Assembly (NCBI GenBank): GCA_030059675.1
Contig: JANVYQ010000005.1
Location: 1 to 64,000 of the forward strand
Direction: 5' to 3'
Source of the DNA: Candidatus Pelearchaeum maunauluense
GTDB lineage: Archaea > Thermoproteota > Nitrososphaeria_A > Caldarchaeales > Caldarchaeaceae
DNA: 64,000 nucleotides
The notes below the pieces were generated by a model. The model worked only from the letters and a program-made list of their open reading frames with translations. It searched no databases and was not told the origin of the DNA. The translations under genes were made by a program, and so were the position numbers. Each line of letters opens with the position of its first letter. The first letter of the stretch is position 1. This document shows positions 9,349-9,901 of this stretch, one piece after another.

Positions 9349-9456
9349 CCTGACTTTAATTTACAAATTAAACAAGTATAAAATCGTCTATTCTAGGAGA
9401 GTGTTTAAAGAATTAGCTATAATCCATACAATCCTTCCCAGATATGCGGCAGGTGG

Positions 9457-9616
9457 TGCGGGGGGTGGGATTTGAACCCACGAACCCCTTCTGCCCAGGC
9501 ATACTCTTCGGGACAGGAGCTTACCGATGCCGGGCCTGCGCATTCTCAGTCCTGCGCCGATAGCCGTTGCCCAGCAATGCTTGCTGGGCGCATTGACCAG
9601 GCTTGGCGACCCCCGC
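9457..9616 (-). tRNA. tRNA-Leu(GAG), interrupted by two clear introns and probably a third
   Basis: Reverse complement: acceptor GCGGGGG/CCCCCGC, T arm GTGGG-TTCAAAT-CCCAC, anticodon stem/loop CAGGA-CTGAGA...C-TCCTG. Removing the inserted D-loop, 37/38 and variable-arm segments leaves about 86 nt, suited to a class II tRNA. Confidence 0.85.
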
Positions 9617-9676
9617 GCCCTACAAGTGATTCTGGTGTCTGGGATATTTTATCTTTAGTCATCCCCTCATGATAAA

Positions 9677-9751
9677 AGCCCCGGGCGGGATTCGAACCCG
9701 CGCTCTCCAGCTTACCAAGCTGGCGCTTTAACCAGCCTAAGCTACCGGGGC
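9677..9751 (-). tRNA. tRNA-Thr(GGT)
   Basis: Reverse complement GCCCCGGTAGCTTAGGCTGGTTAAAGCGCCAGCTTGGTAAGCTGGAGAGCGCGGGTTCGAATCCCGCCCGGGGC folds as a cloverleaf; anticodon loop TTGGTAA. Confidence 0.93.
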
Positions 9752-9901
9752 TGTGCTGTCGGTGGTTGTTGTAGCCTTCTTATATGGATTAGGCAGTTTG
9801 CATGCGGGTGTGCTGGACTTTGCTTAGGTTTTTAGTCAGCAATCAGCGGTGTGGTTAATTGTTTTTGTCGTATTTTCTTGAAGGTTTATATGTTTTAGAA
9901 C

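Follow-up and report, generated by a model that had tools for sequence, protein, structure and literature searches.

A three-intron tRNA-Leu(GAG) gene in Candidatus Pelearchaeum maunauluense and a tentative link between D-arm introns and elements with a guide-like RNA in related Caldarchaeales

Structure of the tRNA-Leu(GAG) gene

The window analysed here is a 64,000-nt stretch of DNA from the heat-loving archaeon Candidatus Pelearchaeum maunauluense (contig JANVYQ010000005.1, positions 1 to 64,000), whose genome assembly is 1.79 Mb in size and 94% complete. The minus strand carries a class II tRNA-Leu(GAG) gene of 160 nt (9616–9457) that is interrupted by three introns. An acceptor stem (GCGGGGG/CCCCCGC), a T stem (GUGGG/CCCAC) and the anticodon GAG can be read directly from the sequence, as an earlier note on this DNA had proposed, and ARAGORN agrees with the assignment after removal of the intron segments from the sequence.

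Exon 1 (9593–9616) extends through position 21 and is the same as in intronless relatives. It is followed by a 33-nt D-arm intron at position 21/22 (9560–9592), which is missing from two relatives (L145 and L147) and is 32 nt long in a third (L138). Within this intron is a perfect 9-bp hairpin, GCCCAGCAA-TGC-TTGCTGGGC, at 9569–9589. Exon 2 (9545–9559) supplies positions 22–36, with the anticodon at 9547–9545, and a 24-nt intron lies in the anticodon loop at position 36/37 (9521–9544), leaving G37. Exon 3 (9509–9520) is separated by an 18-nt variable-arm intron (9491–9508) from exon 4 (9457–9490), which provides the remaining variable arm, the T arm and the acceptor strand. Exons 2 to 4 were delimited from intronless relatives, and the anticodon-loop and variable-arm introns from the splicing motif described below. 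The CCA end is encoded (9454–9456). Deletion of 33, 24 and 18 nt leaves a tRNA of 85 nt, or 88 nt with CCA.

The earlier note had placed the D-arm intron at about 9561–9592, the anticodon intron at about 9520–9543 (position 37/38), and, tentatively, a third intron near 9487–9507, with a mature tRNA of approximately 86 nt. All three introns and the hairpin were borne out, the variable-arm intron by comparison with intronless relatives and with one relative that has the same intron. The boundaries, the anticodon-loop site and the mature length were each slightly off, and are replaced by the values given above.

Splice sites were examined in a strict bulge-helix-bulge (BHB) register, in which the end of the upstream exon pairs with the end of the intron to form a 4-bp central helix, and 3-nt bulges are cut between bases 2 and 3. 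The bulges and a fully paired central helix (4/4) are present at each of the three junctions, including those in the D arm and variable arm where the earlier note had called for such a check. The central helices are GGUC:GGCU in the D arm (bulges AA|U and AU|C), ACUG:CGGU in the anticodon loop and GUCC:GGGC in the variable arm. Among the introns compared across genomes, at least three pairs form in 11 of 12 D-arm introns and in all three anticodon introns, while the seven variable-arm introns (15–30 nt, five genomes) have 4/4 pairs in one exact register without exception. When removed, all seven restore CCCG(A/U)AGGGG. The signal is abolished by shifting the 3' strand by 1 to 4 bases.

Comparison with relatives

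The Leu genes of related genomes were found by two pattern searches, one using the gene's first 24 nt and the other its anticodon arm. G001 belongs to the same genus as the window genome, and G002, G003 and G005 belong to the same family. The spliced 85 nt are identical (85/85) to the intronless tRNA-Leu(GAG) of G003 (L145) and G005 (L147); thus, the division into exons and introns did not arise by chance. All three introns are found in G001, the D-arm and anticodon introns in G006, and the D-arm intron alone in G007. Between the window gene and that of G001, its nearest relative, there are no changes in the 85 exon positions and eight in the 75 intron positions (Fisher p = 0.002).

Pattern searches of the window genome recovered five Leu genes and no second tRNA-Leu(GAG), a copy of which the earlier note had named as something to look for. 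Each of the five has a D-arm intron. The codons CUC and CUU make up 41% of 601 sampled Leu codons in this genome. The gene is not detected by ARAGORN with default settings or by the Rfam tRNA model, even with E values up to 10. With introns allowed, ARAGORN misnames the unspliced gene as tRNA-His; once the three segments are removed, it is called tRNA-Leu(GAG).

Probable promoter, genomic setting and processing enzymes

A probable promoter, the TATA-like block CTAAAGATAAAATATCCCAG, lies upstream on the minus strand (9639–9658). Its 20 nt are identical in G001, although the flanks have diverged and the upstream tRNA-Thr is missing there. In the window, this neighbor is an intronless tRNA-Thr(GGU) (9676–9752, minus strand) located 59 nt upstream of the Leu gene and identified by both ARAGORN and Rfam. 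An argininosuccinate synthase encoded 1 kb away is closest to that of Candidatus Benthortus lauensis of the Wolframiiraptoraceae, a family of Caldarchaeales (Aigarchaeota; PMC9246946).

The window genome encodes two subunits of the splicing endonuclease EndA, in keeping with the heteromeric enzyme anticipated in the earlier note, and an RtcB protein. From an alignment to 3p1z and 3ajv, the alpha subunit (L031) retains the catalytic residues Tyr119, His127 and Lys158, and its K38-P39-R40 aligns with K44-P45-R46 in the crenarchaeal loop of Aeropyrum pernix. It therefore has both the catalytic Tyr-His-Lys and the Lys-Pro-Arg of the specificity loop that characterize broad-specificity (αβ)2 endonucleases; the role of this loop has been described (PMC6379350, PMC12397907). 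In the beta subunit (L032), the catalytic Tyr and His are absent. As a separate observation, the Lys-Pro-Arg loop has been termed crenarchaea-specific, and it occurs here in a Caldarchaeales EndA (L031:1237-1785).

Interpretation of the gene and its alternatives

The gene structure, its exact spliced product, the conservation of the introns and of their BHB register, and the enzyme genes are established directly. As judged from these sequences, the locus is very probably a single-copy, functional tRNA-Leu(GAG) gene with its own promoter, whose precursor is spliced at three BHB introns by EndA and an RtcB-type ligase. The precursor would be transcribed from its own promoter, the heteromeric endonuclease would cut each bulge (D arm at 21/22, anticodon loop at 36/37, and variable arm), and the ligase would join the four exons into an 85-nt class II tRNA reading CUC and CUU. 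The outer helix of the variable-arm BHB, CUCCU:AGGGG, pairs bases that belong to the anticodon stem of the mature tRNA; thus, splicing is likely to be stepwise.

Two features weigh against this interpretation. The outer helices of the D-arm and anticodon motifs are only 2 bp long in the strict register, making them relaxed BHBs. Furthermore, when the full-length naked precursor is folded at 37 °C, the three central helices form with probabilities of 0.10, 0.001 and 0.006. In control calculations, a gene with a single D-arm intron gave 0.99, while a second two-intron gene with standard BHBs gave approximately 0; as a result, naked folding is a weak test for multi-intron precursors. Should the poor fold, which is not cloverleaf-like, and the failure of standard finders to detect or name the gene be taken at face value, the locus might be a decaying or insertion-damaged pseudogene that makes no working tRNA. 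This is extremely unlikely given that the introns vary while the exons remain unchanged, that searches of the genome turned up no further Leu(GAG) gene, and that the three-intron architecture and the promoter are shared with G001.

The other alternatives concern individual introns. Class II tRNAs tolerate changes in variable-arm length, and a GAAG direct repeat permits five placements of the variable-arm intron, so that splicing could be limited to the anticodon and D-arm introns with the extra variable-arm sequence retained as a long arm. Since one exact BHB register is shared by seven introns from five genomes, all of which restore the same variable-arm sequence, there is very little chance that this is the case, and the register selects 9508–9491 among the five placements. 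The anticodon intron could also be shifted by one base to the common 37/38 site, leaving A37. This placement was rejected, as none of the four central pairs form (compared to 4/4 at 36/37) and G37, present in all 17 orthologues that lack an anticodon intron, would be lost; we consider it very improbable.

Archaea, chiefly Pyrobaculum and Thermofilum, are known to have tRNA genes interrupted by as many as three introns (PMC3218864, PMC4090602, PMC3293823), and Caldiarchaeum subterraneum has intron-rich tRNAs with introns in the D, V and T arms (PMC3293823). The window gene is a further case. It resembles tRNA-Pro(UGG) of Pyrobaculum islandicum (introns at 25/26, 37/38 and 56/57; PMC4090602) in that one gene carries three BHB introns, at both canonical and noncanonical positions, in a host with a two-subunit endonuclease. 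It differs in its Caldarchaeales origin, its Leu isotype and its intron positions (21/22, 36/37 and the variable arm). With three exactly placed BHBs, two of them relaxed, the gene may serve as a test substrate, and it illustrates how, in archaea rich in introns, essential tRNAs can be overlooked or wrongly named by standard finders.

Elements inserted in tRNA genes of relatives

A locus of G002 (L212; G002:C9, L212:1380-2772) contains, in order, a tRNA-Leu 5' fragment, a 272-aa open reading frame (ORF), a structured RNA and a complete tRNA-Leu(CAG). In this complete tRNA both the 5' half and the D-arm intron are new, and GGGTTCAGG is found where the element inserted; the structured RNA carries the guide CCTGAACCC. 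A second locus (L216; G014:C1, minus strand, tRNA at 1191-1090) has the displaced, intronless 5' half of a tRNA-Asn upstream of the element. Apart from a 30-nt D-arm intron, the rebuilt tRNA-Asn downstream departs from the displaced half at a single base. The BHB of this intron, GAAG:CUUC, is perfect, and the new tRNA no longer has an unbroken guide site. Elements inserted in tRNA genes terminate in a new tRNA 5' half that takes the place of the original one, and a D-arm intron is usually included in it.

Among 44 genomes of the order, 15 contain homologues of the 272-aa ORF, each with up to 12 copies. Approximately 30 further copies of the ORF and RNA have no tRNA nearby (L214, L215, L217, L230, L231, L237-L241 and others). 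Invariant residues of the family include D52, R85, K89, D94 and G219. The Pfam model DEDD_Tnp_IS110 matches three of 18 element proteins weakly (best E value 0.011), and the NCBIfam IS110 model also matches three of 18. An hhalign comparison with IS110 gave a probability of 54%, which fell to 6% under another column rule, and a profile search of PDB sequences produced no meaningful match.

Directly 3' of most of these ORFs is a folded RNA (four examples gave shuffle z-scores of −3.3 to −5), and a model built from it finds additional copies adjoining other ORFs. In seven tRNA-inserted elements, the RNA contains 9–10 nt antisense to the anticodon arm of the host tRNA: L212 (Leu-CAG), L213 and L229 (Thr-GGU), L216 (Asn-GUU), L218 (Tyr-GUA), and L219 and L227 (Leu-CAA). 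The shuffle p-values are 0.0005–0.009, and the anticodon arms of other hosts match over 4–7 nt, apart from hosts of the same isotype. Three of the four elements with a known displaced 5' fragment also have an 8–9 nt sense match to that fragment (L212 AACGGCGCA, L216 TAGAGCGCC, L219 CAACGGCG), a match that the new tRNA no longer has. L232 adjoins a tRNA-Thr and was not counted, its best guide match being short and elsewhere in the RNA. At L218 (G043:C35), the tRNA-Tyr downstream of the element apparently has two or three introns, one in the D arm.

In the element RNA, an internal loop matches the insertion site with a left guide in sense and a right guide in antisense orientation, and this is also how the target-binding loop of the IS110 bridge RNA is laid out (PMC11208160). 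As in IS110/IS1111, the elements are short and the insertion point is often ..GG|CT..; the RNA is 3' of the ORF, as in IS1111. Unlike those systems, the Caldarchaeales protein is only remotely similar (about 240–300 aa), no second (donor) loop was identified, and a substitute 5' half of a tRNA is part of the element. Searches of the open-licence literature yielded no account of IS110-like elements that target tRNA genes, which does not prove that none exists.

Possible origin of the D-arm introns

A similar arrangement was reported at the tRNA-Thr(GGU) locus of Caldiarchaeum subterraneum, where a 5' fragment is followed by an approximately 1.9-kb insert, which includes an ORF of 813 bp, and then by a rebuilt tRNA with a D-arm intron (PMC3293823). 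Caldiarchaeum belongs to the same order as the window genome, and the layout of its locus resembles that in the relatives examined here. That report concerned one locus, ascribed to a pNOB8-type integrase. In contrast, the loci in the relatives are several, independent of one another and spread over different tRNA types, and they have an IS110-like ORF and a guide-like RNA. Since the displaced intronless 5' half, the element, its guide-like RNA and the new tRNA with its intron are found side by side, the mobile-element model drawn from the single Caldiarchaeum locus becomes directly testable, and it bears on the long-standing question of how archaeal tRNA introns originate.

We tentatively propose, as a possibility somewhat short of an even expectation, that guide-directed IS110-like elements installed D-arm introns in Caldarchaeales, and that the D-arm and anticodon introns of the window gene are relics of, or protection against, such elements. 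A bridge-RNA-like guide would read the anticodon arm and preceding stem of one tRNA gene, the element would insert within the anticodon stem and supply a new tRNA 5' half, and the intron or recoded D stem of this half would destroy the guide site. The closest connection to the window gene is an ORF-less remnant of the element RNA fused to a tRNA-Leu 5' fragment (L287, G002:C12:71523-71639), directly upstream of the tRNA-Leu(GAG) of G002. It carries CCTCAGTCC, a Leu-GAG anticodon guide antisense to GGACTGAGG. Both guide sites, AACGGCG and GGACTGAGG, are intact in the intronless tRNA-Leu(GAG), and both are interrupted in the window gene by its D-arm and anticodon introns. These introns may thus fit a relic or protective origin, as had been suggested before for tRNA introns (discussed in PMC3293823).

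Several points count against this proposal. A genome search found no homologue of the 272-aa ORF in the window genome, an RNA model search found no match to the guide RNA, and the D-arm intron sequences differ. In single cases the anticodon arms of other tRNAs reach 7–10 nt with a guide, and each match alone is modest; the argument for a guide is drawn from the consistent diagonal of matches and their fixed place in the loop. In G002, a displaced Leu fragment on contig C5 already has the 21/22 intron and was nevertheless struck, which weakens the idea that this intron alone protects.

Other intron-bearing tRNA genes were also observed. In G007, identical 31-nt D-arm introns are present in three Leu isoacceptor genes (L150, L151 and L190), which suggests recent spread or gene conversion and echoes the intron transposition in Thermoproteales cited in PMC4090602. 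From match lengths, the only measure used for genome-wide counting, at least 15 non-Leu tRNA genes of the window genome (G000; loci L001-L030 and L173-L179) exceed the length of an intronless tRNA. One of its tRNA genes, tRNA-Arg(CCU) (L178), seemingly contains both a D-arm and an anticodon intron.
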